Part shown: one piece after another, positions 28,179 to 60,451 of the stretch
Position numbering within the stretch: the first letter of the stretch is position 1
Layout of the letters: each line of letters starts with the position of its first letter
From: Pararhizobium qamdonense
Lineage (GTDB): Bacteria > Pseudomonadota > Alphaproteobacteria > Rhizobiales > Rhizobiaceae
Assembly (NCBI RefSeq): GCF_029277445.1
Contig: NZ_CP119566.1
Span: 1,614,001-1,678,000, forward strand
Direction: 5' to 3'
DNA length: 64,000 nt
Program-made: the position numbers and the translations under genes
The notes under the pieces: model-generated
Seen by the model: the letters and a program-made list of their open reading frames with translations, nothing else
What the model was told of the DNA's origin: nothing
The model's database searches: none

Positions 28179-28182
28179 ATCC

Positions 28183-29568: not shown

Positions 29569-29570
29569 TC

Positions 29571-30458: not shown

Positions 30459-31180
30459 GCGATAACCTTCTGCATGTCAAAGACGTCGAGACATATTACG
30501 GCAATATCCGGGCGCTTGGCGGCGTCGAAGTCGAAGTCAAGCGCGGCGAAATCGTCTGCATGATCGGTGCCAATGGCGCCGGCAAATCGACGCTGATGAT
30601 GACGATCTGCGGCAGCCCGCAGGCAAAGACCGGCTCCGTCACGTTTGACGGCCAGGACATTACCCGGATGCCGACGCACGAGATCGCGCGTCTGCGCATC
30701 GCCCAGTCGCCGGAAGGCCGCCGGATCTTTCCGCGCATGACCGTCTATGAAAATCTTCAGATGGGCGCCAGCCTCGACAATCTGAAATATTTCAACGAGG
30801 ACGTGGAAAAGATCTTCACGCTCTTTCCGCGCCTGAAGGAACGCCAGGCGCAGCGCGGCGGAACGCTTTCGGGCGGCGAACAGCAGATGCTGTCGATCGG
30901 CCGCGCGCTGATGGCGCGCCCGAAGCTGCTGCTTCTCGACGAGCCGTCACTCGGTCTGGCGCCCTTGATCGTCAAGGGCATCTTTGCGGCGATCAAGAAG
31001 CTCAATGAAGAGGAAGGGCTTACCGTCTTCCTCGTCGAGCAGAATGCGTTCGCAGCCCTGAAACTGTCCCATCGCGGCTATGTCATGGTCAATGGCAAGG
31101 TGACGATGAGCGGGACGGGCAAGGAATTGCTCGCCAATCCAGAAGTGCGCGCGGCCTATCTCGAAGGCGGTCATCATTGA
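30455..31180 (+). CDS. livF: Branched-chain amino-acid ABC ATPase LivF
   Basis: Second ATPase (241 residues) of the Liv importer. Walker A is IGANGAGKSTLMMT, the signature is LSGGEQQMLSIGRALM and Walker B is LLLLDEPSLGLAP. The LivF hallmark VPQ-type region is AQSPEGRRIFPRMTVYENLQ. It is coupled to livG by a four-base overlap. A 118-base gap follows before the small DUF6867 gene. Confidence 0.93.
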   Translation: MSDNLLHVKDVETYYGNIRALGGVEVEVKRGEIVCMIGANGAGKSTLMMTICGSPQAKTGSVTFDGQDITRMPTHEIARLRIAQSPEGRRIFPRMTVYENLQMGASLDNLKYFNEDVEKIFTLFPRLKERQAQRGGTLSGGEQQMLSIGRALMARPKLLLLDEPSLGLAPLIVKGIFAAIKKLNEEEGLTVFLVEQNAFAALKLSHRGYVMVNGKVTMSGTGKELLANPEVRAAYLEGGHH

Positions 31181-31298
31181 TGGCAGACCGGCTCATGGCA
31201 AAGGTATTTCTGCGCCGGGGCCGGTTTGCCCATCCGACACGTTGGGGCGTTCGCACGCGGTTTGAAAACCGCCCGGCGCTTTGAAGGGGAGAAACGGA

Positions 31299-31643
31299 AT
31301 GCAAGGCATTCTCTACGAAGAACCTTCGGTTCTATACTTTGCGCTCATCACCATCGTGATGGGCGGATGGACGGCCTGGCGCACTGGAAAGAGCGCTGCC
31401 GAAGGCTGGAGCAGCTACGGCGTTCTGGTCGTCTACACGCTGCTTCTTGGCGTGGCGATCCGCTTCATTCACCACGCGCTTTTCAACGGCAGCATGCTGG
31501 TTTTGCAGTACTATGTCGTGGACACGATCATTCTTTTGCTGTTTGCTACGGCAGGTTACCGTTACTACCGCACGCAGCAGATGACCAACAATTACTACTG
31601 GCTCTATGAGAAGGTGACACCCTTTTCGTGGAAGTCCAAATGA
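31299..31643 (+). CDS. Small membrane protein, DUF6867-like
   Basis: Membrane protein of 114 residues with no known function. Three hydrophobic stretches are evident (about residues 12-27, 41-56 and 68-84), and the tail is charged and tyrosine-rich (YRYYRTQQMTNNYYWLYEKV). The start at 31299 has GGGGAG seven bases upstream; an earlier in-frame ATG at 31281 is less likely. It lies between livF and livK in the same direction, so it may be an accessory of the importer. The DUF6867 label is from memory of rhizobial liv loci. Confidence 0.75.
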   Translation: MQGILYEEPSVLYFALITIVMGGWTAWRTGKSAAEGWSSYGVLVVYTLLLGVAIRFIHHALFNGSMLVLQYYVVDTIILLLFATAGYRYYRTQQMTNNYYWLYEKVTPFSWKSK

Positions 31644-31765
31644 CAGAGGGAACCCCGCATATAAGTCGTTAAGGCTTGATGCGGAGATAAGAATACCGGC
31701 GCGATTATGGTGGGTATCGTGACTGGTTTAAAATGCACCCGCTCAATTTTTTTGGGAGTAACAAG

Positions 31766-32887
31766 ATGAAAAAGTCACTTTTGTCAGCTGTTGCGCTGAC
31801 TGCAATGGTCGCTTTCAGCGGCACTGCATGGGCTGATCTGCTGGTTGGTGTTGGTGGCCCGCTGACAGGCCCGAACGCCGCTTTCGGCGCGCAGCTCCAG
31901 AAGGGTGCCGAGCAGGCCGCAGCTGACATCAATGCTGCCGGCGGCATCAACGGCGAGCAGATCAAGATCGTGCTCGGCGACGACGTTTCCGATCCGAAGC
32001 AGGGCGTTTCCGTTGCCAACAAGTTCGTTGCCGACGGCGTCAAGTTCGTGATCGGCCACTTCAACTCCGGCGTTTCGATCCCGGCTTCGGAAGTCTATGC
32101 TGAAAACGGCATCTTGCAGATCACTCCTGCATCCACAAACCCGGTCTTTACCGAGCGTGGCCTGTGGAACACCTTCCGTACCTGCGGCCGTGACGACCAG
32201 CAGGGCGCTGTTGCCGGTGCCTATATTGCTGCAAACTTCAAGGACGCCAAGGTTGCCGTCGTTCACGACAAGACACCTTACGGCCAGGGCCTGGCTGACC
32301 TGACCAAGGCTGCCATGAACGAAGCCGGCGTCAAGGAAGCCGTCTACGAAGGTATTACGGCTGGCGACAAGGACTTCTCGGCGCTGATCGCCAAGATGAA
32401 GGAAGCCGGCGTCACGCTGGTTTACTACGGCGGCCTGCACACGGAAGCTGGCCTCATCATGCGCCAGATGGCTGACCAGGGCCTGAAGGCAACCCTGATG
32501 TCGGGCGACGGTATCGTTTCGAACGAACTGGCTTCGATCGCTGGCGACGCTGTTGACGGCACGCTGATGACGTTCGCTCCGGATCCGCGCAAGAACCCGG
32601 CTGCAAAGGAACTGGTCGAAAAGTTCCGCGCAAACGGCTTTGAGCCGGAAGCCTACACGCTCTACTCCTACGCAGCCCTCCAGGTCATCGCAGAAGCTGC
32701 CAAGACAACCGGCGGCAACGACCCGCAGGCTGTTGCCGAAAACATCAAGGGCAAGGGTCCGTTCAAGACCGTTATCGGCGAGTTCGGCTATGACGAAAAG
32801 GGCGACATCACCCGCCCGGACTACGTCATGTACACCTGGAAGAAGGGTGACGACGGCAAGTTCAGCTACTTCGAAAACGACAAGTAA
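31766..32887 (+). CDS. livK: Branched-chain amino-acid-binding periplasmic protein
   Basis: Periplasmic binding protein (373 residues) that presents amino acids to LivHMGF. A signal peptide is clear ([19 protein letters not shown], cleavage near residue 23). The mature protein has the LivJ/LivK pattern: [40 protein letters not shown] and [20 protein letters not shown]. The start at 31766 follows GGGAGTAACAAG; an upstream ATG at 31733 would spoil the signal peptide. Codon use is noticeably optimised, which suggests high expression. A strong terminator follows. Confidence 0.93.
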
Positions 32888-33126: not shown

Positions 33127-34050
33127 CTATTCCTGCCGCAACGCATTCGCCGCCTTGACGGCGGCGGAGGCGCGGTTTTCGACGCCGAGTTTGACGTAGA
33201 TCTGTTCCAGGTGCTTGTTGACCGTTCGGGCGCTGAGGCCGAGGATTTCGCCGATGTCGCGATTGGATTTGCCCTTGGCGATCCAGAGCAGAACCTGGCC
33301 TTCGCGCACCGTCAGGGCAAAGTTTTGGCGCAAAACCTCGTCGTCGCTGGTCTGGCTGACGCCGGTCAGACGGAACAGGTATTCGTCGCCGCCGATCGCG
33401 CCGAGATAGGCGAGTTGCAGCACCGGCTGGCCGTTCTGGTGGATCATCAGCGGGCCGTCCTTGGAGACGCCATGTTTTGCGCGCTCCTGCAGCCAGCCGC
33501 GAATATGGTCCGCGAGCGTGTCCAGGCCGTCGTCGCGGCCGGTCGCCGCGTTGACGAGCCGGGTTGCCTGCGGTGTCGACCATTGGATGGTGCCATTGCT
33601 GCGCACGGCGAGCAGATGCCGTCCTGCCGCGTCGAGCGCCACGCGTGCACTTTGCGCCGAACGCGCATTGGCCAGATGCACCCGGATGCGGGCGCGCAGT
33701 TCGTCGATGTTGATCGGCTTGGAGAGATAATCGACGCCGCCGGATTCGAGCGCGTGGACGATATGTTCGGTCTCGGTCAGCCCGGTCATGAAGATCACCG
33801 GCACCTGCGCCACGGCCGGATTGGTCTTCAGCGTCCGGCAGGTTTCAAAACCGTCCATGCCGGGCATGACGGCATCCATCAAAATTACGTCCGGCGTGAT
33901 GCGATCGACGACATTGATGGCGGCATTGCCGGAGGTGGCGATCAGTACGGAAAAGCCGGATTGCTCCAGCGCGTCGGTGAGAAAGCCCAGCGTTTCCGGG
34001 GAATCGTCCACGATGAGCACGATGTCGCGCGGATGCACTGCTTCATTCAC
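33127..34050 (-). CDS. Response regulator, receiver + linker + LuxR-type HTH
   Basis: DNA-binding response regulator of 307 residues, the likely partner of the hybrid kinase encoded just upstream. The receiver is at about 10-125: acidic pair IVDDSPE, phospho-acceptor D59 (VILMDAVMPGMDG) and Lys in YLSKPIN. A middle region of about 110 residues has a PAS-like look (GRHLLAVRSNGTIQWSTPQA). The C-terminal NarL/LuxR helix-turn-helix is LTVREGQVLLWIAKGKSNRD followed by ILGLSARTVNKHLEQIYVKL. The GTG start at 34050 overlaps the kinase stop by eight bases, so the two are translationally coupled. Probable target: the divergent urt promoter. Confidence 0.88.
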   Translation of the reverse strand: MNEAVHPRDIVLIVDDSPETLGFLTDALEQSGFSVLIATSGNAAINVVDRITPDVILMDAVMPGMDGFETCRTLKTNPAVAQVPVIFMTGLTETEHIVHALESGGVDYLSKPINIDELRARIRVHLANARSAQSARVALDAAGRHLLAVRSNGTIQWSTPQATRLVNAATGRDDGLDTLADHIRGWLQERAKHGVSKDGPLMIHQNGQPVLQLAYLGAIGGDEYLFRLTGVSQTSDDEVLRQNFALTVREGQVLLWIAKGKSNRDIGEILGLSARTVNKHLEQIYVKLGVENRASAAVKAANALRQE

Positions 34051-37000
34051 CAGCCGGTCTCCCCTGTTTGTTGATGTTCTGCAGGAAGTCGGCATAGCCG
34101 GCAAGGTCGAAAGCCTGGACGTAGGTCTTGACCGCGTCGGTAAAGGGCTGGTTCTCCTCAAGGCGGGCGAGATCGGCGAGCTTGGCCTCGATGCCGCGGA
34201 CATAGCCGATTTCGCCGAGCCGGATCAATTCCTCGATATGGGCGGCGCCGGGGTTGGTCATGGTGCGCCGGGGTTTGGCCGTCTGCACCGGCTGCACCGT
34301 GTCGCTATAGATCCATTCCAGCGCCAGATGCACCGCCAGCTTGTCCTGCAGCTGGCGGATATCGAAGGGCTTGGCGAGCGTGTCGTTATGGCCGGTATGG
34401 GTATCTGCCGCGGTCCCGTCACCGATATTGGCCGACAGCATGATGACCGGCGCCGTCTGGCCGTGGTCGCGCAGCCGCGTCACCAGCTGCCAGCCGTTCA
34501 TGCCCGGCATCGAGATATCGATGAGGAAAAGATCGGGCTTGATGCCCTCGATCAGGGTGACGCATTCCATACCGCCTGCAGCCGTCAAAACCACGAAATC
34601 GAGCGGCATCAGCACTTCGCGCATCAGGTCGCGATGGTCCTCGTTGTCATCGACGACGACGATGGTGCGGCGCGGGCCGGCATAACCGGCGATCTTGCGG
34701 ATGGAGGGAAGCGACGCGGTCGGCCGGCTGATCGCCGACAGCATCAGCCGGACGCGAAAGGTGGAGCCCCGGTCGCGCTCGCTCTCGACGACGATCTCGC
34801 CGCCGAGCGTCTGGGTGAGAAGCTGGGTGATGGTGAGCCCCAGGCCAAGCCCTGGCATCGGCCGGATATGCTCGGCCTCGCCGCGCTGGAAGGGCTCGAA
34901 GATGCGCGGCAGGTCGGCCTGAGAAATGCCGCGGCCGGTATCGGAGACGGTGAAGGTCGCAACCTGGCTGCGATAGGTGACGTCGAAGCGGATTTTGCCG
35001 GTATCGGTGAACTTGATGGCATTGGACAAGAGATTGACGAGGATCTGGCGCAGGCGCTTCTCGTCGGTGCGGACATATTGCGGCAGGGCGCTTGCCCGGT
35101 CATGCTCGAAAATGAGGCCCTTGGCCTGCGCCTGCGGGCGGAACATGTCGGTGATCTGGTCGAGGAAATCCTGGATGTTGATCTCGTTGGAATAGACCTG
35201 CAGGCGGCCGGCCTCGATCTTGGAAATGTCGAGAAGGCCGTCGATCAGGCCGGAGAGGTGGTCGGCGCTGCGCTTGATGACCTTGATGGCGGATTGCCGG
35301 GGTGCCGGGATGGTCTCGTCGCGCTCAAGGATCTGGGCATAGCCGAGTACGGCGTTGAGCGGGGTGCGCAATTCGTGGCTGAGGCCGACGACATAGCGGC
35401 TTTTGGCCCGGTTGGCGGCCTCGGCGGTCTCCTTGGCATATTGCAGGGCGGCGTCGGTTTTCTTGTGCGCGGCGATTTCCTTCAGGAGCAGGGTATTCTG
35501 GCGCGAGGATTCCTCTTCCGCCACCAGCCGGCTGTCATGGGCGAGCACATAGAACCAGCAGACGACGCCGGTCACGACGGCAAAGACGAAGAAGACCACG
35601 CCGACTGTCCGGTTGATCACCGATGCGGTTTCGGGCGAGGCGGTGCCGGTCTGGTGGGCGATCATCGCCAGGATGATGCCGATACAGGCAACCGACAGCA
35701 CGACGGCGATGCCATAGCGGCCGAGCCGCGTGGACAGCGTCTCCATCACCTTTTGCGGCAGCAAAGCTTTGGCCACCACGGCTGTCTGGGCGTTGAAGCT
35801 CGCGTGCGGTTTGCACATGTCGTGGCAGCGGCTGTCCAGCGAGCAGCAGAGCGAACAGATCGGCGCGGAATAGGCCGGGCACCAGGCCATGTCCTCGGGC
35901 TCGAACGGATGTTCGCAGATCGAGCAGGTGACGGTCGAGAGTTTCTTCCAGCTCTGGCGGGGCTTGCGGGCGAGGTAATATTTGCCCTTCGTCGCCCAGG
36001 CGATGGCGGGGGAGACGATAAAGGCGGTGATCAGCGCGATATAGGGCGCAAGTGAGGCGGCCATGGCGCCGAACACGCCGAAATGGGCGGTCAGCGCAAT
36101 CAGCGCCGATGCCGTCATGGCGCCGGTGCCGACCGGGTTGATATCGTAGAGATGGGCGCGCTTGAACTCGATATTGGGCGGCGCCAGCCCCAGCGGCTTG
36201 TTGATGAACAGATCGGCCGAGATGGTGCAGAGCCAGGCCATGGCGATGATGGAGAAAATGCCGAGCGTTTCCTCAAGCAGCTTGTAGATGCCCAGCTCCA
36301 TCAGGAGAAGCGCGATCGCCACGTTGAACATCAGCCAGACGACGCGGCCGGGATGGCTGTGGGTGAGGCGGGAGAAGAAGTTCGACCAGGCGAGCGAACC
36401 GGCATAGGCATTCATCACGTTGATCTTCAACTGCGACACGACGACGAAGGCGGCCATCAGCAAAAGCGCGGCATTGTGCCAGGGGATCATGTAGCCAAAC
36501 GCGGTCAGGTACATATGCGCGGGATCGGCGGCATGTTCGACAGGCACCCCGGCGCTCAAGCACAGAACCACGAGGAACGAGCCCGCCAGCAGTTTTGGCG
36601 CCCCGACGATCACCCAGCCGGCGCCGGCGAGGAACACGGCAACCCGGTGATGCAGCTTGCGCTGGCCCTCCGGCGGCAGAAAGCGCAGGAAATCCACCTG
36701 CTCGCCGATCTGCGCCATCAGGGCGAGAATGACGGCGGAGGCAGCGCCGAACTCCAGCAGCGAGAATGGCGCCAGTGCGCCGGGCTCGCCCATCGGCTTG
36801 CCGGTACCGGGAAAGGCAAGCCACAGGTCGAACTTGCTCCAGTCCGCGAGCGCGATGAAAATGAACGGGGCTATGTTGAGGATGATCCAGAACGGCTGGG
36901 TCAGAAGCTGGAATTTGCTGATCAGCCGCACGCCGTGAGTGACCAGCGGAATGACCATGACGGCGCTGATGATATAGCCGATCCAGACGGGGATGCCGAG

Positions 37001-37432
37001 CGCCAGTTCCAGCGCTGCCGACATGATGGATGCCTCAATGGCAAACAGCATGAAGGTGAAGCTCGCATAGATCAGCGAGGTAACGGTGGAGCCGATATAG
37101 CCGAAGCTCGCGCCGCGCGTCAAAAGGTCGATATCGACGCCGTGGCGGATGGCATAGCGGCTGATCGGCAGGCCGACGCCGAGCATGACGAGGCTGGCTG
37201 CGAGAATGGCGATGATGGCGTTGGTGGTGCCATAGGACAGCGTGATGGCGCCGCCGATCGCCTCGAGCGCCAGGAAGGAGATCGCCCCAATCGCGGTCTG
37301 CGAGATGCGCTGCGAGGAGAATTGCCGGGCGCTCTTGGCCGTGAAGCGCAAGGCATAGTCTTCCAGCGTTTGGTTGGCGACCCAGCGGTTATATTCGCGC
37401 CGGACCGGAATGATGCGCTGGCGTGCCGTCAT
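34043..37432 (-). CDS. Transporter-like hybrid sensor kinase (NCS1 permease-Cys-rich-HisKA-REC)
   Basis: Multidomain inner-membrane sensor of 1129 residues. Residues about 40-490 resemble NCS1 (cytosine/allantoin/uracil) permeases with about 12 helices (SRYAIRHGVDIDLLTRGASF). Residues 503-540 hold eight Cys (503, 506, 518, 526, 529, 530, 536, 540), a probable metal module. Two more helices are at about 573-593 and 608-630. The kinase core has H686 (GLSHELRTPLN), an N-box NLLSNAIKF and G-boxes DTGRGIS and GLGLGLT. The receiver is at about 922-1035: D928/D929, D972 (LIDISMPGMNG), K1021. The tail of about 70 residues is helical (EIGYVRGIEAKLADLARLEE). Divergent from urtA and coupled to a LuxR-type regulator, it probably senses urea or a related amide; the ligand is inference from context. 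Confidence 0.87.
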   Translation of the reverse strand: MTARQRIIPVRREYNRWVANQTLEDYALRFTAKSARQFSSQRISQTAIGAISFLALEAIGGAITLSYGTTNAIIAILAASLVMLGVGLPISRYAIRHGVDIDLLTRGASFGYIGSTVTSLIYASFTFMLFAIEASIMSAALELALGIPVWIGYIISAVMVIPLVTHGVRLISKFQLLTQPFWIILNIAPFIFIALADWSKFDLWLAFPGTGKPMGEPGALAPFSLLEFGAASAVILALMAQIGEQVDFLRFLPPEGQRKLHHRVAVFLAGAGWVIVGAPKLLAGSFLVVLCLSAGVPVEHAADPAHMYLTAFGYMIPWHNAALLLMAAFVVVSQLKINVMNAYAGSLAWSNFFSRLTHSHPGRVVWLMFNVAIALLLMELGIYKLLEETLGIFSIIAMAWLCTISADLFINKPLGLAPPNIEFKRAHLYDINPVGTGAMTASALIALTAHFGVFGAMAASLAPYIALITAFIVSPAIAWATKGKYYLARKPRQSWKKLSTVTCSICEHPFEPEDMAWCPAYSAPICSLCCSLDSRCHDMCKPHASFNAQTAVVAKALLPQKVMETLSTRLGRYGIAVVLSVACIGIILAMIAHQTGTASPETASVINRTVGVVFFVFAVVTGVVCWFYVLAHDSRLVAEEESSRQNTLLLKEIAAHKKTDAALQYAKETAEAANRAKSRYVVGLSHELRTPLNAVLGYAQILERDETIPAPRQSAIKVIKRSADHLSGLIDGLLDISKIEAGRLQVYSNEINIQDFLDQITDMFRPQAQAKGLIFEHDRASALPQYVRTDEKRLRQILVNLLSNAIKFTDTGKIRFDVTYRSQVATFTVSDTGRGISQADLPRIFEPFQRGEAEHIRPMPGLGLGLTITQLLTQTLGGEIVVESERDRGSTFRVRLMLSAISRPTASLPSIRKIAGYAGPRRTIVVVDDNEDHRDLMREVLMPLDFVVLTAAGGMECVTLIEGIKPDLFLIDISMPGMNGWQLVTRLRDHGQTAPVIMLSANIGDGTAADTHTGHNDTLAKPFDIRQLQDKLAVHLALEWIYSDTVQPVQTAKPRRTMTNPGAAHIEELIRLGEIGYVRGIEAKLADLARLEENQPFTDAVKTYVQAFDLAGYADFLQNINKQGRPAGE

Positions 37433-37747
37433 GCCTAATTTATATTCCCATTTTCAATGTGATCAATGATTAGGCAATGTCCTCCGGTCAAGGATTTTTT
37501 GCAAGTGCGAGAATCGGTTCGCCTCGGGAGTGGCATTATTGTTTGCGCAAGTGCGGCGTTGCGCTCCCATGCCCGCAAGTTAGGGCCTTGCGTCCGGTCA
37601 AAGGGACGATGATGTGTGCTGCAGTGCACAGTTCGCCCCGGTCACTACGTCAATTGACGTATACAGAATCCGGCACCCTCAACGGATAGTTCCAGCACGA
37701 ACGGCATCCGCAAAAGCCGTCGTCAAAAGAACGAGAGGGGTTCACAC
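37433..37747 (+). other. Divergent intergenic region, sensor kinase / urtA
   Basis: 315 bases with no gene, holding the start regions of both the hybrid kinase (leftward) and urtA (rightward). The notable elements are a perfect 16-base palindrome at 37646-37661 and a GAGAGGGG ribosome site just before urtA. The part next to the kinase is AT-rich (TTTATATTCCCATTTTCAAT). I found no sigma-54 element with correct spacing here. Confidence 0.7.
37646..37661 (+). promoter_or_regulatory. Candidate operator, perfect 16-bp palindrome upstream of urtA
   Basis: TACGTCAATTGACGTA is a perfect palindrome 87 bases before the urtA start. NarL/LuxR-type response regulators bind as dimers to inverted short half-sites of this size, and such a regulator is encoded in the adjacent divergent operon. 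The internal TTGACG could also serve as a -35 box, though the expected -10 region is poor. Confidence 0.5.
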
Positions 37748-39037
37748 ATGACATACAAATCCCAGATCCTGGGCGCGTTCCTGGCTGGCGCGCTGGCCAC
37801 GACAGCATTTTCCAGCGTCCAGGCTGCCGAAGACACGATCAAGGTCGGCGTTCTGCATTCGCTGTCCGGCACCATGGCCATCTCCGAGACGACGCTCAAG
37901 GATGCCATGCTGATGCTCATCGAAGAGCAGAACAAGAAGGGCGGCCTTCTCGGCAAGAAGCTTGAGGCCGTCGTTGTCGATCCCGCCTCCGACTGGCCGC
38001 TCTTTGCCGAAAAGGCCCGTGAACTGATCTCCGTCAACAAGGTCGCAGCCGTGTTCGGTTGCTGGACGTCGTCGTCGCGCAAGTCGGTCCTGCCGGTGTT
38101 CGAAGAGCTGAATTCGATCCTGTTTTACCCGGTCCAGTACGAGGGTGAGGAATCCTCGCGCAACATCTTCTATACCGGTGCTGCCCCGAACCAACAGGCC
38201 ATCCCGGCCGTCGATTATCTGATGAACACCGAAGGCGTCGAGCGTTTCGTGCTTGAAGGCACCGACTATGTCTATCCGCGCACGACCAACAAGATTCTGG
38301 AAGCCTACCTGATTGCCAAGGGCATTCCGAAGGAAGACATCCTGATCAACTACACGCCGTTCGGTTTCTCCGACTGGCAGACGGAAGTGGCCAAGATCAA
38401 GGAATTCGGTTCGGCCGGCAAGAAGACCGCCGTCGTCTCGACCATCAATGGCGATGCCAACGTGCCGTTCTACAAGGAACTTGGCAACAAGGGCATCAAG
38501 GCCACCGATATTCCGGTCGTCGCTTTCTCGGTCGGCGAAGAAGAGCTTGCCGGTCTCGACACCAAGCCGCTGGTCGGCCATCTCGCTGCCTGGAACTATT
38601 TCCAGTCCGTCGATGCCCCGGCCAATGCCGAGTTCATCAAGCAGTGGCATGCCTTCACCAAGAACGACAAGCGCGTCACCAATGATCCGATGGAAGCCGC
38701 CTATATCGGCTTCAATGCCTGGGTAAAGGCGGTCGAAGCGGCCGGAACCACCGAAACGGACGCCGTTCTCGACACGATCATCGGCACCAGCGTTCCCAAC
38801 CTTTCGGGTGGCTACTCCACCGTGATGCCGAACCACCACATCACCAAGCCCGTTCTGATCGGCGAAATCCAGGCGGACGGCCAGTTTGAAATCGTCCAGC
38901 AGACCCCGCAGGTCGTTGGCGACGAATGGTCGGACTTCCTGCCGGACTCCAAGGATCTGATTTCCGATTGGCGCAAGCCGATGTCCTGCGGCAACTTCAA
39001 CGTTGCAACGGGCAAGTGCGGCGGCAAGGGTTCCTGA
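37748..39037 (+). CDS. urtA: Urea ABC transporter, substrate-binding protein
   Basis: Periplasmic urea-binding protein (429 residues). Signal peptide LGAFLAGALATTAFSSVQAA, with cleavage near residue 26. The mature protein carries UrtA hallmarks: IKVGVLHSLSGTMAISETTL, VFGCWTSSSRKSVLPVFEEL, LFYPVQYEGEESSRNIFYTG and the C-terminal RKPMSCGNFNVATGKCGGKG. These separate it from LivK/AmiC relatives. It is first of urtABCDE, and a strong hairpin and a long gap follow before urtB, allowing more binding protein than membrane subunits. Confidence 0.95.
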   Translation: MTYKSQILGAFLAGALATTAFSSVQAAEDTIKVGVLHSLSGTMAISETTLKDAMLMLIEEQNKKGGLLGKKLEAVVVDPASDWPLFAEKARELISVNKVAAVFGCWTSSSRKSVLPVFEELNSILFYPVQYEGEESSRNIFYTGAAPNQQAIPAVDYLMNTEGVERFVLEGTDYVYPRTTNKILEAYLIAKGIPKEDILINYTPFGFSDWQTEVAKIKEFGSAGKKTAVVSTINGDANVPFYKELGNKGIKATDIPVVAFSVGEEELAGLDTKPLVGHLAAWNYFQSVDAPANAEFIKQWHAFTKNDKRVTNDPMEAAYIGFNAWVKAVEAAGTTETDAVLDTIIGTSVPNLSGGYSTVMPNHHITKPVLIGEIQADGQFEIVQQTPQVVGDEWSDFLPDSKDLISDWRKPMSCGNFNVATGKCGGKGS

Positions 39038-39372: not shown

Positions 39373-40980
39373 ATGTATCGCGCCCTCCAGACCTTTCTTG
39401 TTGCCCTCTGCCTGCTGGTCAGTTGCCTTGCAACGGGCCTGCGTGCGCAGGAAGATATCCGGCCGCTGGTCGATGCACTGGGGGCAACCGCGTTCCCGCA
39501 GAAGATCGAGGCCGTCAAGGCGCTGGCCGCATCGGGCAATCCGAAAACCGGCGAAATCCTGCAAAATCTCAGCGACGGCAAACTCTATGCGCCAAGGACC
39601 GGCGGCCCGGTCTTTCTCGAAGGCCCGTCTGACGGCACCTATCTCGATGTGCTGACCGGCGTTGCCGCCGCCGGGGTGCCGGGGAACCTGGCCAAGATCC
39701 GGCTGAACAATGGTTTGCGCGGTGCCATCGGCGCGGCGCTCAGCCAGTTGACCCTTTTAAGCCCCGAGCGCCCGGCACGCCTTGCGGCCGCGCAGGACCT
39801 GCTCAAGAGTGCCCATCCAGATAATCTCGCGCTGTTGAATTCCGCGCTTTCGCAGGAGCAGGATACCGAGGTCAAGGCGACGATGGAGGCCGCGCGCGCC
39901 GTTATCCTGCTCAAGACCGATGCCAGCGCTGCGGACAAGAAGTCCGCCATCGACACGATCGCGGCACGCGGCAATCGCGATGCGCTGACAATCCTGACGG
40001 CTGCAATGGCGACTGCGCCGGATGATCTGAGGCCGGCGATCGAGGCGCATATTGACACCATCAACCGCAGCCTTGCCGCCTGGGATGTGGCGCAGAACGT
40101 CTGGTACGGCCTGTCGCTCGGCTCGGTGCTTTTGCTGGCGGCAATCGGCCTTGCCATTATCTTCGGCGTCATGGGCATCATCAACATGGCGCATGGCGAA
40201 ATGGTCATGCTCGGCGCCTATACGACCTATGTGGTGCAGCAGACGGTGGCGGCCGTCGCCCCCGGCATGACCGATTATTCGCTGGCTTTTGCCGTTCCCG
40301 CCGCATTCCTGTTTACCGGCCTGGTCGGGGTCGGCATCGAGCGCAGCGTCATCCGCTGGCTCTACGGCCGGCCGCTCGAAACGCTGCTCGCCACCTGGGG
40401 TATTTCGCTGATCCTGCAGCAGGCGATCCGCACCATTTTCGGCCCGACAAACCGGCAGGTGGACAATCCCAGCTGGATGTCCGGCGTCTTTGAGGCCGGT
40501 GGTCTCGCCATCACCTATAACCGTATGTGGATCATCGTCTTCTCGCTCGGTGTCTTCGTGGCGCTGCTCCTGCTGCTCAAGCGCTCCAAGTTCGGCCTGC
40601 AGATGCGCGCGGTCACGCAGAACCGGCGCATGGCGTCGTCGATGGGCATTCGCACCCCTTGGGTCGATGCGCTGACCTTTGGCCTCGGTTCCGGTATTGC
40701 CGGCATGGCGGGCGTGGCGCTCAGCCAGATCGACAATGTCTCGCCCAATCTCGGCCAGAACTACATTATCGACAGTTTCATGGTCGTGGTGTTCGGCGGC
40801 GTCGGCAATCTCTGGGGCACGCTGGTCGGCGCCTTGACGCTCGGGATCGCCAACAAGTTCCTTGAGCCCTATGCCGGCGCGGTGCTCGGCAAGATCCTCA
40901 TCCTCGTCTTCATCATCCTATTCATCCAGCGGCGGCCTCGTGGCCTGTTCGCGCTCAAGGGAAGGGCGGTCGAACAATGA
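39373..40980 (+). CDS. urtB: Urea ABC transporter, permease UrtB
   Basis: First membrane subunit of the urea importer (535 residues). It is longer than LivH because of an N-terminal export signal (LQTFLVALCLLVSCLATGLR) and about 220 helical, repeat-like periplasmic residues (alternating pairs of helices such as KIEAVKALAASGNPKTGEIL). This is a known trait of UrtB. The LivH-like pore follows (GSVLLLAAIGLAIIFGVMGI, MAHGEMVMLGAYTTY). The start at 39373 follows AAGAAGAG and begins the signal peptide. The stop overlaps urtC by four bases. Confidence 0.93.
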   Translation: MYRALQTFLVALCLLVSCLATGLRAQEDIRPLVDALGATAFPQKIEAVKALAASGNPKTGEILQNLSDGKLYAPRTGGPVFLEGPSDGTYLDVLTGVAAAGVPGNLAKIRLNNGLRGAIGAALSQLTLLSPERPARLAAAQDLLKSAHPDNLALLNSALSQEQDTEVKATMEAARAVILLKTDASAADKKSAIDTIAARGNRDALTILTAAMATAPDDLRPAIEAHIDTINRSLAAWDVAQNVWYGLSLGSVLLLAAIGLAIIFGVMGIINMAHGEMVMLGAYTTYVVQQTVAAVAPGMTDYSLAFAVPAAFLFTGLVGVGIERSVIRWLYGRPLETLLATWGISLILQQAIRTIFGPTNRQVDNPSWMSGVFEAGGLAITYNRMWIIVFSLGVFVALLLLLKRSKFGLQMRAVTQNRRMASSMGIRTPWVDALTFGLGSGIAGMAGVALSQIDNVSPNLGQNYIIDSFMVVVFGGVGNLWGTLVGALTLGIANKFLEPYAGAVLGKILILVFIILFIQRRPRGLFALKGRAVEQ

Positions 40981-42170
40981 TTGCGCAAATGCTGTTCATG
41001 CGGCACGAGAAAAAGACGCTCTGGGCCGTGTTCCTGATCCTGCTGGCCGCAGCCCTGGTGCCGCTTGCCAATCTGCTCATCCCGCAAGACAGCGCCTTCC
41101 ATGTGCCCGGCTATCTCGTGCCGTTGCTTGGGAAATATCTCTGCTACGCGCTTCTTGCGCTCGCACTGGATCTCGTCTGGGGCTATTGCGGCATTCTTTC
41201 GCTCGGCCATGGCGCATTTTTTGCGCTCGGCGGATATGCCATGGGCATGTATCTGATGCGTCAGATCGGTGATCGCGGCGTCTATGCCAATCCGCTGCTG
41301 CCGGATTTCATGGTCTTTCTGAATTGGCAGGAATTGCCCTGGTACTGGTACGGCTTCAACCATTTCGCCTTTGCGGCGCTGATGGTGCTCCTGGTGCCGG
41401 GACTGCTTGCCTTCGTTTTCGGCTGGTTCGCCTTCCGCTCGCGCGTCACCGGCGTCTATCTGTCGATCATCACCCAGGCCATGACCTACGCGCTGCTGCT
41501 TGCCTTCTTCCGCAACGAAATGGGCTTTGGCGGCAATAACGGCCTCACCGACTTCAAGGAAATCCTCGGCTTCAACGTCCAGGCGGGGGGTACGCGGGCC
41601 GCATTGTTTGCCGCAACCGCTATCGCCTTGGCGCTGGCTCTGCTGCTCAGTTCCGCCATCGTCCGCTCGAAATACGGCAAGGTGCTGGTCGGCGTGCGCG
41701 ATGCCGAAAGCCGGACCCGGTTTCTGGGTTACCGCGTCGAGAACATGAAGCTGTTCATCTTCACCGTCTCGGCGATGATGGCCGGTGTGGCCGGTGCGCT
41801 CTACGTGCCGCAGGTCGGCATTATCAACCCCGGCGAATTCGCCCCGGCAAACTCGATCGAAGTGGTGATCTGGACGGCGGTCGGCGGGCGCGGCACGCTG
41901 ATCGGACCGATCATCGGCGCCATCCTCGTCAATTTCGGCAAGAGCATCTTCACGGCCGCCTTCCCGGAATTCTGGCTGTTTGCGCTCGGCGCGCTGTTTG
42001 TGGCGACCACGCTGTTCCTGCCCAAGGGCGTGGTCGGGACCGTCCAGCAGTTCCTTGCCCGGCGCAAGGAGCAGAAAAAAGCGGATGCCGTGGAGCAGGC
42101 CTACCAGGACAAGGCGGCTGCCAAGGCGGACAGCCAGCTTGCGACACTGAAACCCCAGGCTGCGGAGTAG
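40977..42170 (+). CDS. urtC: Urea ABC transporter, permease UrtC
   Basis: Second membrane subunit (397 residues) of the urea importer. LivM-like core: YALLALALDLVWGYCGILSL, GHGAFFALGGYAMGMYLMRQ, GVYLSIITQAMTYALLLAFF and the loop GVRDAESRTRFLGYRVENMK that contacts the ATPase. The C-terminal 40 residues are charged and Ala/Lys-rich. It overlaps urtB by four bases and is followed after five bases by urtD. Confidence 0.94.
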   Translation: MIAQMLFMRHEKKTLWAVFLILLAAALVPLANLLIPQDSAFHVPGYLVPLLGKYLCYALLALALDLVWGYCGILSLGHGAFFALGGYAMGMYLMRQIGDRGVYANPLLPDFMVFLNWQELPWYWYGFNHFAFAALMVLLVPGLLAFVFGWFAFRSRVTGVYLSIITQAMTYALLLAFFRNEMGFGGNNGLTDFKEILGFNVQAGGTRAALFAATAIALALALLLSSAIVRSKYGKVLVGVRDAESRTRFLGYRVENMKLFIFTVSAMMAGVAGALYVPQVGIINPGEFAPANSIEVVIWTAVGGRGTLIGPIIGAILVNFGKSIFTAAFPEFWLFALGALFVATTLFLPKGVVGTVQQFLARRKEQKKADAVEQAYQDKAAAKADSQLATLKPQAAE

Positions 42171-42175: not shown

Positions 42176-42928
42176 ATGGATGAAAAGACCTCCCGCAGCC
42201 TGCTGTATCTCGATGGCGTTTCGGTCTCGTTTGATGGGTTCAAGGCGCTGAATTCGCTGTCCTTCGTGGTCGAACCCGGCGAGCTCCGGGCGATCATCGG
42301 GCCGAACGGGGCCGGCAAGACGACGATGATGGATATCATCACCGGCAAGACCCGGCCCGATAGCGGCCAGGTGTTCTTCAACGGCGATATCGATCTGACC
42401 AAGAAGGACGAGGCTGATATTGCCCAGCTGGGTATTGGCCGCAAGTTCCAGAAACCGACGGTGTTTGAAAGCCATACGGTCTGGGACAATATCGAACTGG
42501 CGCTCAACCGGAAACGCGGGGTGTTTTCAACGCTGTTCTACCGCCTGACACCGGCCGACAAGGCGCGCATCGAGGAGATCCTCGAAACGGTGCGCATGAC
42601 GTCCCGCAAGGACGACCTCGCCGCCAATCTCTCGCATGGGCAAAAACAGTGGCTGGAAATCGGCATGCTTCTGGCGCAGGAGCCAAAACTGCTTCTGGTC
42701 GATGAACCGGTGGCCGGCATGACCGACGCGGAAACGGCCGAGACCGCCATCCTGCTCAAAGAAATCGCCAAGACCCGCTCGGTCGTCGTCGTCGAACATG
42801 ACATGGGCTTCATCCGGGATCTCGGCGTCAAAGTGACCTGCCTTGCCGAGGGCTCGGTGCTCGCCGAAGGCTCGATCGATTTCGTCAGCAACGATCCGAA
42901 AGTGATCGAGAACTATTTGGGGCGGTGA
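42176..42928 (+). CDS. urtD: Urea ABC transporter, ATPase UrtD
   Basis: LivG-type ATPase (250 residues) of the urea importer. Walker A is IGPNGAGKTTMMDI, the signature region is NLSHGQKQWLEIGMLLAQ (degenerate, as usual for UrtD), Walker B is LLLVDEPVAGMT and the switch His is in VVEHDMGFI. The N-terminal sequence SLLYLDGVSVSFDGFKALNS is typical. It is separated from urtE by a palindromic repeat. Confidence 0.94.
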   Translation: MDEKTSRSLLYLDGVSVSFDGFKALNSLSFVVEPGELRAIIGPNGAGKTTMMDIITGKTRPDSGQVFFNGDIDLTKKDEADIAQLGIGRKFQKPTVFESHTVWDNIELALNRKRGVFSTLFYRLTPADKARIEEILETVRMTSRKDDLAANLSHGQKQWLEIGMLLAQEPKLLLVDEPVAGMTDAETAETAILLKEIAKTRSVVVVEHDMGFIRDLGVKVTCLAEGSVLAEGSIDFVSNDPKVIENYLGR

Positions 42929-43113: not shown

Positions 43114-43809
43114 ATGCTGACCGTCGACAACATCAATCTGCACTACGGCGCGGCCCAGGCCCTTCGTGGCGTCTCCATTACTGCGCCGATGGGTAAGATC
43201 ACCTGCGTGCTCGGCCGCAACGGTGTCGGCAAGACCAGCCTGTTGCGCGCGATCACCGGCCAGCATGGGCCGAGCGCCGGCACCATCGCCTTTAACGGCA
43301 CGGTGCTGAACGGCATGGCGCCCTATAACCGGGCCAAGCACGGTATTGGGTTCGTGCCGCAGGGCCGCGAAGTCTTTCCGCTTTTGACGGTCAAGGAAAA
43401 CCTGGAATCGGGCTATGCGCCGGTGGCACGCAAGGACCGGTACATTCCCGAGGATATTTTCAACCTGTTTCCGATCCTGCGCTCGATGCTTGGCCGCCGC
43501 GGCGGTGATTTGTCGGGCGGGCAGCAGCAGCAGCTGGCGATTGGCCGGGCGCTGGTGACGCGGCCGAAAATCCTGGTTCTGGACGAGCCGACCGAGGGCA
43601 TCCAGCCGTCGATCATCAAGGATATCGGCCGGGCGATCCAGTATCTGCGCGATTCCACCGGGATGGCAATTCTGCTTGTGGAACAATATCTTGACTTCTG
43701 CCGTGAGCTTGCAGACCATGTCTATATCATGGACCGCGGCGAGATCGTGCATGAAGGCCCGGCCGAAACGCTGGATACGCCGGAAGCGCGCCGCCACCTC
43801 ACAGTGTGA
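43114..43809 (+). CDS. urtE: Urea ABC transporter, ATPase UrtE
   Basis: LivF-type ATPase (231 residues) of the urea importer. Walker A is LGRNGVGKTSLLRA, the signature is LSGGQQQQLAIGRALV and Walker B is ILVLDEPTEGIQPSII, the EGIQPSI part being typical of UrtE. The start at 43114 has AAGGAAGAAG upstream and begins the homology; an in-frame extension reaches into the palindromic repeat and is discounted. ureD follows after six bases, which links import to urease assembly in one transcription unit. Confidence 0.95.
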   Translation: MLTVDNINLHYGAAQALRGVSITAPMGKITCVLGRNGVGKTSLLRAITGQHGPSAGTIAFNGTVLNGMAPYNRAKHGIGFVPQGREVFPLLTVKENLESGYAPVARKDRYIPEDIFNLFPILRSMLGRRGGDLSGGQQQQLAIGRALVTRPKILVLDEPTEGIQPSIIKDIGRAIQYLRDSTGMAILLVEQYLDFCRELADHVYIMDRGEIVHEGPAETLDTPEARRHLTV

Positions 43810-43815: not shown

Positions 43816-44652
43816 ATGGCAATGGCTGAGGCAGCAGGGATCGCTCCGCAAAGGGCATGGGGCAAAGGGCGGCTGGTGGCAAAGCCATTTGCGGGGCGTA
43901 CCCGGCTTTGCGAATTCTACCAGGAGGGCTGCGCCAAGATCAGGCTGCCCGATACGTTCGACACGACGATGGAAGCGGTGCTGATCAACAGTTCCGGCGG
44001 CCTGACCGGTGGCGACCATATGGAGTGGTCGTTCGTGGCCGGCGAGGGCACGCATCTCACCCTGACCACCCAGGCCTGCGAGAAGATCTACAGGGCAAGC
44101 GCCGGCACCGCTGATGTGACCGCGCAGATTTCGGTTGGCGCGGGGGCCACTGTCCATTGGCTGCCGCAGGAAACCATCCTGTTCGACCGCGCCTCGCTGT
44201 CACGCAAGCTGGAGGTCGATCTGGCCGAAGGGGCGGAATTTCTGGCGGTCGAGGCCGTGCTTCTCGGCCGCAAGGCGATGGGCGAGGCAATGCGCGAAGG
44301 CCTGTTTCAGGACCGCTGGCGCATCCGCAGCAACGGCGCGCTGCTGCATGCGGAAAACCTCAGGCTGAACGGTGATATCACCGGCCTGACGCGCGAGAGC
44401 GCGGTGCTCGGCGGGCAGGTGGCTTTTGCGACACTGTTTTACACCGGCGCCGATTGCGAGCGGCACGTCGATACTCTGCGCGGCCTGATCGGCGGCATTG
44501 CCGGCGGGGTGAGCCATTATCAGGTTGTTGGCAAGGACAAGCTGATTGCCCGCCTCGTTGCGCCGGATGGTTTCGCCTTGAGAAAAATCCTCATCCCGGT
44601 CATTTCGCACTTGCGCAAGGGCGCCTCTGTGCCGAAAGTCTGGAACCTGTAA
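43816..44652 (+). CDS. ureD: Urease accessory protein UreD
   Basis: Scaffold protein (278 residues, also called UreH) that binds apo-urease and, with UreF and UreG, lets nickel reach the active site. Typical segments are present: [55 protein letters not shown] and the C-terminal [16 protein letters not shown] end. The start is ATG 43816, or ATG 43822 two codons later. It begins the ure part of the operon. Confidence 0.94.
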
Positions 44653-44677: not shown

Positions 44678-44980
44678 ATGAACCTGACACCCCGTGAAAA
44701 AGACAAACTGCTGATTTCGATGGCAGCGATGGTCGCCCGCCGGCGGCTGGAGCGCGGCGTCAAGCTCAATCATCCTGAAGCGATCGCGCTGATCACCGAT
44801 TTTGTCGTCGAGGGCGCCCGCGACGGCCGCTCGGTGCCGGATCTGATGGAAGCGGGGGCGCATGTCATCACCCGCGCCCAGGTGATGGAGGGCATCCCCG
44901 AGATGATCCACGACATCCAGATCGAGGCGACCTTTCCGGACGGGACCAAGCTGGTCACCGTTCACGAACCCATTCGCTGA
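44678..44980 (+). CDS. ureA: Urease gamma subunit
   Basis: Smallest structural subunit of urease (100 residues) of the (UreABC)3 enzyme. Essentially family standard throughout: [40 protein letters not shown] and [20 protein letters not shown]. The length is exactly as usual. It is followed after ten bases by the small DUF1272 gene rather than directly by ureB. Confidence 0.97.
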
Positions 44981-44990
44981 GGGAACGGCC

Positions 44991-45245
44991 GTGCTGCAAC
45001 TGAGACCCAATTGCGAATGCTGCAACAAGGACCTGCCGCCCGGCAGCCGCGAGGCGATGATCTGCAGTTTCGAATGCACCTTCTGCACCCAGTGTGTTTC
45101 CGAGGTTCTCGACGGACAATGCCCGAACTGCAGCGGCGAACTTGTGCGCCGCCCGGTTCGCCCTGCCGCCAAGCTCGGCAAGTTCCCGGCCTCCACAGAG
45201 CGGGTCTTGAAGGCCGAAGGCTGTGCGCCGATCAAGGCTGCCTGA
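44991..45245 (+). CDS. Small Cys-rich DUF1272 protein in urease operon
   Basis: Protein of 84 residues, function unknown. The N-terminal 50 residues are a dense cysteine zinc-ribbon-like pattern ([39 protein letters not shown]), matching DUF1272. The C-terminal third is basic and probably flexible. It starts with GTG at 44991, ten bases after ureA, and ends 17 bases before ureB, so it is expressed with urease. A metal-handling or regulatory role in urease assembly is a guess; DUF1272 proteins also occur away from urease. Confidence 0.82.
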
Positions 45246-45262
45246 ACAGGAGAGATGATACG

Positions 45263-45568
45263 ATGATCCCCGGTGAAATTATTGCGGCAAGCGGTGATAT
45301 CGAGCTGAATGCAGGGCTGGAAACCGTGTCGCTGGAGGTCTCCAACAGCGGCGACCGGCCGGTGCAGGTGGGCAGCCATTATCACTTCGCCGAGACGAAT
45401 GCGGCCCTTCTGTTCGACCGCCCGGTGGCGCATGGCAGGCGGCTCGATATCCCGGCCGGAACGGCCGTGCGTTTCGAGCCCGGGCAGACCCGCAGCGTCA
45501 CGCTCATTCCCTTTGCCGGAAAGCGCGAGGTCTATGGTTTCCGCCAGAAGGTGATGGGTAAGTTATGA
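45263..45568 (+). CDS. ureB: Urease beta subunit
   Basis: Structural subunit of urease (101 residues). Standard sequence: [40 protein letters not shown] and the [20 protein letters not shown] region. The ATG at 45263 is preceded by AGGAGAGATGATACG. The stop overlaps the next gene (ATGA at 45565-45568). Confidence 0.97.
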
Positions 45569-45999
45569 GGCGTTTTTTCTTCGTATCAGGCCTGATTACC
45601 GCCACGCTTTTTCAAGGCATTGTTTCTGCGCAGGCGCAAGACCAACCGAATGTCGATTGCGCCAATGCCGAGACCCAAACTGACATGACGATCTGCGCCA
45701 ACAAGGATTATGAGGCGGCCGATACCGAGCTGAACGCGGTCTATAAGAAGGCCATGGCGGCGATGAAGAATGCCGATAAGGACCTTGGTGAGATCGACGC
45801 AAATTATCCCGGCGCCGTCGATGCCCTGAAGAAAGCGCAGCGGGCCTGGATCGATTATCGTGACGGGCAGTGTGAGCTGGCCGGGTTTGAAGCGCGGGGA
45901 GGATCGCTTGAGCCGATGCTGGTATCCGTCTGTCTTGCCGGCCTGACGAAGAAGCGTAGCGAGGAACTGAAGGGCTTTACCGAAAGATTTGGAAACTGA
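45565..45999 (+). CDS. LprI-like periplasmic protein (DUF1311)
   Basis: Predicted secreted protein of 144 residues. The signal peptide [20 protein letters not shown] has cleavage near residue 25 (AQA). The mature part fits the lysozyme-inhibitor LprI/DUF1311 family: [20 protein letters not shown], a helical AAMKNADKD stretch, [20 protein letters not shown] and a final Cys in [18 protein letters not shown], giving two probable disulfides. It is translationally coupled to ureB though periplasmic, and its link to urease is unknown. Confidence 0.82.
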
Positions 46000-47374: not shown

Positions 47375-49084
47375 ATGTCCTACAAAATGTCGCGCGCGGC
47401 CTATGCCAGCATGTTTGGTCCCACCACCGGCGACAAGGTTCGGCTGGCGGATACCGAATTGTTCATCGAGGTGGAGAAGGATTTCACCACCTATGGTGAC
47501 GAGGTGAAATTCGGCGGCGGCAAGGTCATTCGCGACGGCATGGGCCAGAGCCAGGCAACGCGGGCTCAAGGCGCTGTCGATACCGTCATCACAAATGCGC
47601 TGATCGTTGACCACACCGGCATCGTCAAGGCCGATATCGGTTTGAAGAACGGCCGGATCGCGGCGATCGGCAAGGCTGGCAATCCGGATACGCAGCCGGG
47701 CGTGACCATCATCGTCGGCCCGTCCACCGAGGTGATTGCGGGCGAGGGCAAGATCGTCACGGCAGGCGGCATGGACGCCCATATCCATTTCATCTGCCCG
47801 CAGCAGATCGAGGAAGCGCTGATGTCGGGGATCACCACGATGCTCGGCGGCGGTTCCGGCCCTGCGCATGGCACGCTGGCGACAACCTGCACGGGCGCCT
47901 GGCATATCGAGCGGATGATCGAGAGCTTTGACGGCTTTCCGATGAATCTGGCGCTGGCCGGCAAGGGCAATGCCTCGCTGCCGGCGCCGCTGGAGGAGAT
48001 GATCCTTGCCGGCGCGTCCAGCCTGAAGCTGCACGAGGACTGGGGCACGACGCCTGCCGCCATCGACAATTGCCTGTCGGTCGCCGATGCCTTTGACGTT
48101 CAGGTGATGATCCACACCGACACGCTGAACGAAAGCGGCTTCGTCGAGGATACGATCGACGCCATCAAGGGCCGCACGATCCATGCCTTCCACACCGAAG
48201 GGGCAGGCGGCGGTCATGCGCCTGACATCATCAAGATCTGCGGCCAGTCGAACGTCATCCCGTCCTCGACCAACCCGACCCGGCCCTACACGATCAACAC
48301 CTTGGCCGAACATCTCGACATGCTGATGGTCTGCCATCACCTGTCGCCGTCCATTCCTGAAGATATCGCCTTTGCCGAAAGCCGGATCCGCAAGGAAACC
48401 ATTGCGGCCGAAGACATTCTCCACGATATCGGCGCCTTCTCGATCATTTCCTCCGATAGCCAGGCGATGGGCCGGGTCGGCGAGGTGGCGATCCGCACCT
48501 GGCAGACCGCCGACAAGATGAAGCGGCAGCGGGGAAGGCTGGCTCAGGAGACCGGCGACAACGATAATTTCCGGGTGCGCCGCTATATCGCCAAATACAC
48601 CATCAATCCCGCCATCGCCCAGGGTCTTTCCCATGAGATCGGCTCGATCGAACCGGGCAAACGCGCCGATCTGGTGCTGTGGAACCCTGCCTTCTTCGGC
48701 GTGAAGCCCGACATGGTCCTTCTCGGCGGCATGATCGCGGCCGCTCCGATGGGCGATCCCAACGCCTCCATCCCGACGCCGCAACCGGTGCATTACCGGC
48801 AGATGTTCGGCGCTTTTGGCAAGGCACGGACGAATTCCTCGGTCACCTTCGTGTCGCAGGCCTCGCTGGACGGCGGCCTGCAGGCGCGCCTTGGTGTTGC
48901 CAAGCAGTTGATCGCGGTGAAAAACACCCGTGGCGGCATCAGCAAGGCCTCGATGATCCACAATAGCCTGACGCCGCATATCGAGGTCGATCCCGAAACC
49001 TACGAGGTGCGCGCCGATGGCGAGCTTTTGACCTGCGAACCGGCAACCGTCTTGCCGATGGCGCAACGCTACTTCATGTTCTAG
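47375..49084 (+). CDS. ureC: Urease alpha (catalytic) subunit
   Basis: Nickel metalloenzyme subunit (569 residues) that hydrolyses urea to ammonia and carbamate. All active-site residues are visible: H136 and H138 ([10 protein letters not shown]), the carbamylated Lys K218 ([11 protein letters not shown]), H247 and H273 (nickel), the catalytic flap VCHHLSPS with H321/H322, and D361 (SSDSQAMGR). The length is normal. An AGAGGTAGACC site precedes the ATG, which follows the toxin stop by three bases. Confidence 0.98.
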
Positions 49085-50626: not shown

Positions 50627-51103
50627 ATGCCCTATCGCTCGACCGAAATCCTGTCGCCCGGCCCGGCCGGCATCATACCGCTGCACACCATTGCGCTTGC
50701 CCACGATCAGCGCCATCTGCGCCGCAAACTGCTGCATCTCGACAATGACGATGTGGTGATGCTCGATCTCAAGGAAGCCGTCATGCTGGCTGACGGTGAT
50801 CTTCTGGTGCTCGATAGCGGCGATCATGTGCGCATCGCAGCCATCTCCGAGCCGCTTTACGATATCCGCCCGCGCGATCCGCTCCACCTGATCGAACTCG
50901 CCTGGCATCTGGGCAACCGGCATCTGGCCGCCGAAATCCGGCCGGACCGGATTTTGATCCTGCGCGATCCCGTCATCAAGGCGATGCTGGAAGGTTTGGG
51001 CGCGACGATCGGCGAGGTCACGGAACCGTTCCAGCCGATGCGCGGCGCCTATCACGGGTCCGGCGGGCATTCGCACGGCGGCCATCATCACGCCCATGAC
51101 TGA
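50627..51103 (+). CDS. ureE: Urease accessory protein UreE (nickel chaperone)
   Basis: Nickel-binding chaperone of 158 residues that hands nickel to UreG for urease maturation. The N-terminal domain ([20 protein letters not shown]) and the metal-binding domain ([20 protein letters not shown]) are followed by a histidine-rich tail ([16 protein letters not shown]) for extra nickel binding. The start ATG at 50627 is 39 bases after the preceding terminator. The 3' end overlaps ureF by eight bases. Confidence 0.95.
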
Positions 51104-51767
51104 TCTGGCCGGGACGCAGGCGCTTTTGCGGTTGGTGACATGGTTGTCGCCGGCTTTTCCGGTCGGCGCGTTCTCCTATTCCGGCGGGCTCGAACAGGCG
51201 GTGCACGATGGTCTGGTGACCGATGCGCCAGGGCTTGCGGCATGGCTGCAGGCGCTGATCGAGCATGGTTCTGCCTGGAATGACGCCGTGCTGTTGGCCG
51301 AGAGCTACCGTGCCTGTGGCGATGCGCCAAGATTGGCGGCGGTGCGGGAACTGGCGGAAGCTTTGGCCGGATCGCGCGAGCGGCACATGGAAACGATGCT
51401 GCAGGGCGAGGCGTTCCTGACGGCCGCAGCCCATTGGCCGCATCCGGGCCTTGAAACGCTCCACGGTGCTATCGCCTATCCCGTTGCCGTCGGTGCGGTT
51501 GCGGGCATCCATGGAACGGGGCTGGAGGCAGCGCTTGCGGCCTACCTGCATGCAAGTGCCTCCAATCTCGTTTCGGTGGCGATCCGGTGTGGCGTTACCG
51601 GGCAAACGCATGGTCTCGGCGTGCTGGTCAAGCTCGAGCCGGTGATCTCCGCGACGGCGGCGCGGGCCGCAGCCACGACGCTGGACGATCTCGGCTCTGC
51701 CACCATCACGGCCGATATTTCGGCCCTGCGCCATGAGACATTGCATTCGCGGCTCTTCCGGTCCTGA
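51096..51767 (+). CDS. ureF: Urease accessory protein UreF
   Basis: Helical accessory protein (223 residues) that joins UreD and UreG in the apo-urease activation complex. Family-typical parts are [56 protein letters not shown] and the C-terminal [16 protein letters not shown]. The length is normal. It overlaps ureE and lies 38 bases before ureG. Confidence 0.96.
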
Positions 51768-51805
51768 CGGTTTCGAGCGCCCGCTTTCTTGAAAGGAATA
51801 TTGCG

Positions 51806-52414
<609 letters not shown>

Positions 52415-52417
<3 letters not shown>

Positions 52418-58613: not shown

Positions 58614-58634
58614 GTCAGTTCCCTTTTTTGTTGT

Positions 58635-58655: not shown

Positions 58656-58695
58656 GGCTTTTTTATGGTGCCTGCCCACCACGGACAGGCATTTC

Positions 58696-60449: not shown

Positions 60450-60451
60450 GC

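Follow-up and report, generated by a model that had tools for sequence, protein, structure and literature searches.

Which signal is read by a histidine kinase whose sensor resembles a transporter, and does that signal govern the urea genes beside it? This question is raised by a locus of Pararhizobium qamdonense, within a stretch of 64,000 nucleotides (hereafter the window), in which a transporter-fused kinase stands next to a urea uptake and urease operon. The kinase and its co-encoded regulator probably form a two-component sensor for urea (in the window's clade) or short-chain amides, with the regulator acting at TACGTCA-N2-TGACGTA near urtA. The pair comprises the following features.

34043..37432, minus strand: hybrid histidine kinase, 1129 aa, NCS1-Cys8-2TM-HisKA-HATPase-REC
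35981..37369, minus strand: NCS1-fold sensor domain, residues 22-484
35813..35926, minus strand: eight-Cys (Cys8) module, residues 503-540, Cys invariant in 41/41 sensors
35537..35728, minus strand: two extra membrane helices, residues 569-632, from model and hydropathy
35207..35404, minus strand: HisKA with H686 (Pfam PF00512)
34739..35068, minus strand: HATPase_c (Pfam PF02518)
34337..34663, minus strand: REC with D972 (Pfam PF00072)
34046..34255, minus strand: C-terminal tail, residues 1060-1129, poorly conserved (mean conservation 0.44)
33127..34050, minus strand: response regulator, REC plus LuxR-type HTH, 307 aa, putative GTG start

An earlier note on this DNA had described an NCS1-permease-like domain, an eight-Cys module, two helices, HisKA with H686 and REC with D972 in a kinase that is divergent from the urt-ure operon and coupled to a LuxR-type regulator, and this architecture and arrangement were confirmed. 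With its HisKA His, HATPase and REC Asp, the protein is a hybrid histidine kinase (H686 and D972 in 39/39), and Pfam together with fold comparison places a transporter domain in fusion with HisKA-HATPase. According to the model and hydropathy, the second extra helix continues into the signalling helix. No PAS domain upstream of HisKA was matched by Pfam at E<=1, an SSS/SLC5 domain is absent, and the Pfam search gave no STAC match from a library whose possession of a STAC model is uncertain. The regulator, combining REC with a GerE HTH as LuxR/NarL-type proteins do, overlaps the kinase stop with its putative GTG start.

Since the kinase has no direct Pfam match to NCS1 (PF02133) at E<=1, fold and profile evidence was sought for the sensor domain. 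The structure model retains the full NCS1 fold, its nearest structural neighbours are permeases of amide-bearing rings, and sequence homology to NCS1 was obtained at an hhalign probability of 99.5% with a standalone permease (L167) as the bridge. Solved structures searched by sequence profile yielded no NCS1 chain, and the own genome gave no PF02133 match at E<=0.001. Residues were mapped onto Mhp1 through L164 and profile alignment, placing N338 and N341 at N314 and N318, E133 at Q121, F53 at Q42, L/F129 at W117, A231 near W220 (plus or minus one), and K336 and I337 at S312 and T313. The latter two we take to belong to the Na2 site of Mhp1, and the roles of the other mapped residues, including the two TM8 Asn, are likewise presumed. 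The polar TM8 pair is therefore kept and the ring-holding aromatic sandwich looks reduced, while K336 and I337 at the Na2-site positions make the sodium site look replaced by a fixed charge and Na+ coupling look lost. Permease L167 carries Arg at the place of K336, so that K336 is not by itself a sensor marker; it also carries Glu at the position of E133, whereas E57, invariant in 41/41 sensors, is Phe there. This standalone NCS1 permease, akin to the sensor, adjoins a 614-aa protein with two CN_hydrolase stretches (L167 1327-2817; L177 7324-9168) and is possibly an amide or nitrile permease.

The apparent loss of Na+ coupling at the presumed Na2-site positions and the ABC transporter already carried by the urt and fmd operons argue against a true transceptor, in which the NCS1 domain would also transport urea or amides and the kinase would read transport cycling or flux instead of static binding. 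Such a role would suit the complete NCS1 fold and the position of the nearest standalone permease seen beside the two-CN_hydrolase protein, as might be expected of an amide permease, and it has a precedent proposed for CbrA and histidine in the cited parts of PMC13022988 and PMC7918813; overall, it is regarded as possible but unlikely. For a sensor that binds its ligand, the conservation pattern fits a pocket under selection, as TM3, TM8, TM9 and the loop 412-435 reach 0.82-0.89, above HisKA (0.73), HATPase (0.67) and REC (0.55), with lower values in other sensor parts (TM11-12, 0.59; TM13, 0.47).

The Cys module, cytoplasmic by helix count, gave weak matches when searched alone, with many zinc fingers (RING, PHD, FYVE, ZZ) among them and none significant. 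Comparison with the two-zinc cross-brace finger returned RING 1wim (E 0.53, probability 0.82; module model pLDDT 72.7), and no structural match reached E<=0.001. Elsewhere, the module was matched in 13 of 120 genomes, 11 times in the kinase itself and twice weakly in non-kinases. A metal relay, as the earlier note had it, is not supported by these matches despite the invariant Cys, and a zinc-held coupler is a guess.

Upstream of the kinase, on the opposite strand, lies the urea operon.

37748..39037, plus strand: urtA (TIGR03407, 548.5 bits, cut-off 492.75)
39373..40980, plus strand: urtB, start predicted (TIGR03409)
40977..42170, plus strand: urtC (TIGR03408)
42176..42928, plus strand: urtD (TIGR03411)
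43114..43809, plus strand: urtE, start predicted (TIGR03410)
43816..44652, plus strand: ureD, by position, no NCBIfam match at 1e-20
44678..45568, plus strand: ureA (44678-44980, NF009712) and ureB (45263-45568, NF009682)
47375..49084, plus strand: ureC (Pfam Urease_alpha)
50627..52417, plus strand: ureE (50627-51103), ureF (51096-51767, by position only) and ureG (51806-52417)

Because the TIGR03407 label is given to true UrtA and to the amide-type binding protein alike, the name UrtA cannot separate urea from amide operons; the UrtB-E models support urea for the window, and FmdA is the marker of amide operons. The urease cluster also holds ORFs for LprI (45565-45999), a protein with no Pfam match (46032-46703), a PIN domain (46907-47371) and DUF2459 (49107-49793). 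On the other side, positions 27273-32887 contain a liv-type ABC operon with its binding protein at 31733-32887, and such an operon adjoins the kinase pair in many urt loci as well. At the end of the window (57621-63998), an NMT1-type binding protein (57621-58682, minus strand) and an amidohydrolase (63126-63998, minus strand) perhaps serve pyrimidine or hydantoin use.

A search with the sensor alone scored at least 8000 proteins, all at E<=1e-10. In a sample drawn evenly from the phylum, the kinase was present in 38 of 299 genomes, own included, and in 27 of 154 genera; the sample's 42 kinases count two G019 fragments as one, with one standalone permease set aside. Identity to the window's sensor ranges over 45-85% among the 40 fetched ones, and some of their genomes share only the phylum with the window. 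Beside the window's own, 40 loci of up to 20 kb were fetched; the one remaining kinase, in G224, is on a 4.8-kb contig, which is not enough for an evaluation. An amide-type ABC operon was found in 27 of these loci, urt in 8 (7 with ure in the span), ure only in 2, formamidase only in 2, and nothing in 1 (L078), because its contig ends. Every evaluable kinase (40/40, own included, L078 and G224 out) thus has urea or amide genes in the span. With 80 added loci, the best 80 of 578 confirmed, which are heavy in Rhizobiaceae and probably repeat at least one genome, urea or short-amide genes surround the kinase in 116 of 120 loci: 45 are of amide type (42 with fmdA, 25 with amiE), 67 have urt (34 with ure in the span), 2 ure only and 2 fmdA only. 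The regulator was matched in 119/120, in some weakly. Most neighbour labels rest on BLAST against proteins of the window or of L058; they were confirmed on examples for formamidase (NF045496, 773 bits), aliphatic amidase (NF009802, 716 bits) and urease alpha, the L076 formamidase being labelled by BLAST only (68%).

Among the 4 loci without such genes, L078, L118 and L129 stop at contig ends and L124 is a true exception: kinase and regulator are present and a perfect palindrome precedes the kinase, yet urt, ure and fmd are all missing within 10 kb. A liv-type operon lies close by, and the metabolic genes were perhaps lost or moved. Short NCS1-Cys8 kinases of about 890 aa without REC occur near formamidase in L075 (6376-9060) and L076 (6358-9015) and form a separate tree branch, and in L075 a 422-aa ORF overlapping the kinase end resembles a receiver protein by eye.

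A placement of homologues mostly beside unrelated genes is rejected by the 116/120 loci. The same count, along with the kinase-linked palindrome at urtA, supports the transporter-shaped urea/amide sensor of urea genes envisaged in the earlier note; its choice of urea as the partner holds for the operon type of the window's clade, but most relatives in the even sample stand with short-chain amides (27/40 loci with amide operons and 2 with formamidase alone).

The urea label must change four times on a tree built from 41 sensors, where well-supported branches force at least three of these changes, and urea-linked sensors sit on long branches among amide-linked ones; G158, G225 and G246 each have one kinase of either type. 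The tree suggests that an amide sensor was recruited to urea more than once, a direction that we infer, as the root is the drawing root. Because urea- and amide-linked sensors hardly differ in their pocket helices, these helices leave the specificity unexplained. Positions 327 and 401-403 differ between the groups in 3 or 4 of 4 origins, but the differing positions are only a lead, since their number, 20, is not above the 18, 24 and 22 of three amide-clade control sets; positions 83, 274, 402 and 403 are notable only as otherwise nearly invariant (25 to 27 of 28).

Control of the operon is approached through its promoter, where two elements were located.

37646..37661, no strand: TACGTCAATTGACGTA, candidate operator of the regulator, 7-2-7 inverted repeat
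37685..37690, plus strand: GATAGT, a -10-like element, 23 nt past the palindrome towards urtA

The palindrome TACGTCA-N2-TGACGTA is 86 bases ahead of the urtA ATG. A consensus drawn from 40 non-redundant urtA promoters places CCGATAGT at a fixed distance, although not every promoter carries it. Placing the -35 hexamer by the usual -35/-10 promoter spacing, the palindrome then abuts it with its centre near -43, an activator-like position; fmd promoters have no comparably clear -10-like element. The palindrome emerged from dyad counting in de-duplicated upstream regions (51 urea-type, 32 amide-type), in which TACGT-N6-ACGTA occurred in 18/51 urea-type and 9/32 amide-type regions and TACGC-N6-GCGTA in 12/32 amide-type regions, while the commonest dyad over five pooled shuffles reached 3 and 4. 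Merged as TACGY-N6-RCGTA, the pattern had a perfect copy no more than 450 bp ahead of the kinase start in 68 of the 119 regions used (the window plus 118 loci, L091 and L129 being left out) versus 1 of 1190 first-order Markov simulations, and other controls weigh more than these simulations because the pattern was drawn from the same 119 regions.

Over 2,441,288 bp of loci, 113 perfect sites were counted, with none in 16 of 120 loci, and 106 precede the kinase, urtA, urtB, fmdD, fmdE, ureA or fmdA by at most 900 bp. Searching -600 to +150 nt of the ORF start, as starts are uncertain, with 10 loci lacking a usable gene, gave a perfect site at 60/65 urtA and 27/45 fmdD (34/45 with at most one mismatch), leaving 5/65 and 18/45 without. 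In G142 and G158, where the kinase is at one end of urt-ure, the site is about 12 kb off, at urtA; where DNA is inserted between kinase and urtA, it is near urtA, mostly about 100 bp away. Whole-genome scans of 15 kinase carriers gave a perfect site at the kinase-linked urtA or fmdD in 10; in two (G174, G193) it lay only inside the operon, and three (G012, G186, G162) had none at those genes. The own genome has three perfect places in 6.24 Mb, 37646-37661 among them; the other two (G000:C1:939360 and G000:C2:543778; L184, L185) are near ORFs not linked to urea and are probably chance. Additional perfect palindromes are inside amide operons in L181, L182 and L186; the one in L182 (1971), about 100 bp before fmdA, suggests a second promoter under the same control.

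Across genomes, the palindrome is associated with the kinase. In 700-bp stretches at urtA, a perfect site was found in 0/20 kinase-less genomes, two reaching 9 of 10, and at a second urtA in 2/20 kinase-bearing genomes. These two, G019 and G225, are the sole genomes among the 20 whose kinase adjoins urease genes with urt elsewhere; in the remaining 18, with kinases only amide- or formamidase-linked, the separate urt promoter has a perfect site in 0/18, a split made after the count was seen. The system thus looks partner-specific instead of a general nitrogen switch, and this result, with the closest folds being permeases of amide-bearing rings, speaks against a sensor of some shared consequence of amide use (ammonium, nitrogen status or pH), even though ammonia is released by hydrolysis of both urea and amides and the pocket helices are almost alike in the two groups; that reading is judged improbable. 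Still less credible is that the palindrome serves a different regulator while the kinase pair has other targets: L124, with kinase, regulator and palindrome but no metabolic genes, would accommodate it, as would the putative assignment of the site, yet all 20 kinase-less urtA promoters lack a perfect site and NarL-type regulators recognise a 7-2-7 inverted repeat starting TAC, as here.

Considering the neighbouring urea and amide genes and the matching DNA site, the kinase probably senses those nitrogen sources. In the proposed mechanism, a small amide would bind in the transporter-like central pocket of the NCS1-fold domain, and the conformational change would pass through the Cys8 module and the two extra helices to HisKA. 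Phosphate would move from H686 to D972 and/or directly to the LuxR-type regulator, which would bind TACGTCA-N2-TGACGTA next to the -35 position of urtA and most probably activate the uptake and hydrolysis genes. In the cited passage of PMC10781810, fmdCABDEF of Methylophilus is induced by formamide and by urea.

Taking the relatives together, we lean slightly towards an undescribed, widespread class of transceptor-like kinases whose NCS1 fold turned into a receptor of short amides and passed repeatedly from amide to urea operons, with a Cys8 two-metal coupler (mechanical or redox) and a shared TACGTCA-N2-TGACGTA regulon code. If true, this would directly answer how bacteria of several classes of the phylum sense urea and small amides and would bring a second transporter family into the small group of known kinase fusions, while the predicted operator and the natural amide/urea switches would make ligand recognition testable. 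The NCS1-kinase fusion is already visible in databases, because the JGI name of a close homologue, 'signal transduction histidine kinase/purine-cytosine permease-like protein', states both parts. The term NCS1 is absent from the main texts of PMC13022988 and PMC7918813, and no paper on such a fusion or such a urea/amide two-component system was among the matches listed, in a coverage mostly outside subscription papers.

Compared with the NCS1 permeases CodB and Mhp1, the window sensor shares the fold and retains the two TM8 Asn (N338, N341), but differs in its kinase fusion, its Lys at a Na2 ligand position and its lack of a direct Pfam match. For fmdCABDEF of Methylophilus methylotrophus, the passage in PMC10781810 names a putative positive regulator in the cluster and no kinase. 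Transporter-kinase fusions are known from the SSS family, namely CbrA, MxtR and PrlS, according to the cited parts of PMC13022988 and PMC7918813. PrlS/PrlR of Brucella melitensis resembles the window pair in joining a transporter-domain hybrid kinase to a LuxR-family partner, but PrlS has an SSS domain and a proposed signal of ionic strength (PMC7918813, in part). CbrA/CbrB and MxtR (CrbS)/ErdR are described in the same parts of PMC7918813 and PMC13022988 as SLC5(SSS)-STAC-PAS-histidine kinase transceptors, in which, as in the window, a transporter domain is joined to a histidine kinase through a linker, in MxtR also with REC. The window kinase differs from them in having an NCS1 fold instead of SSS, the Cys8 module and two helices at the position where they carry STAC and PAS, and urea/amide genes as its neighbours.
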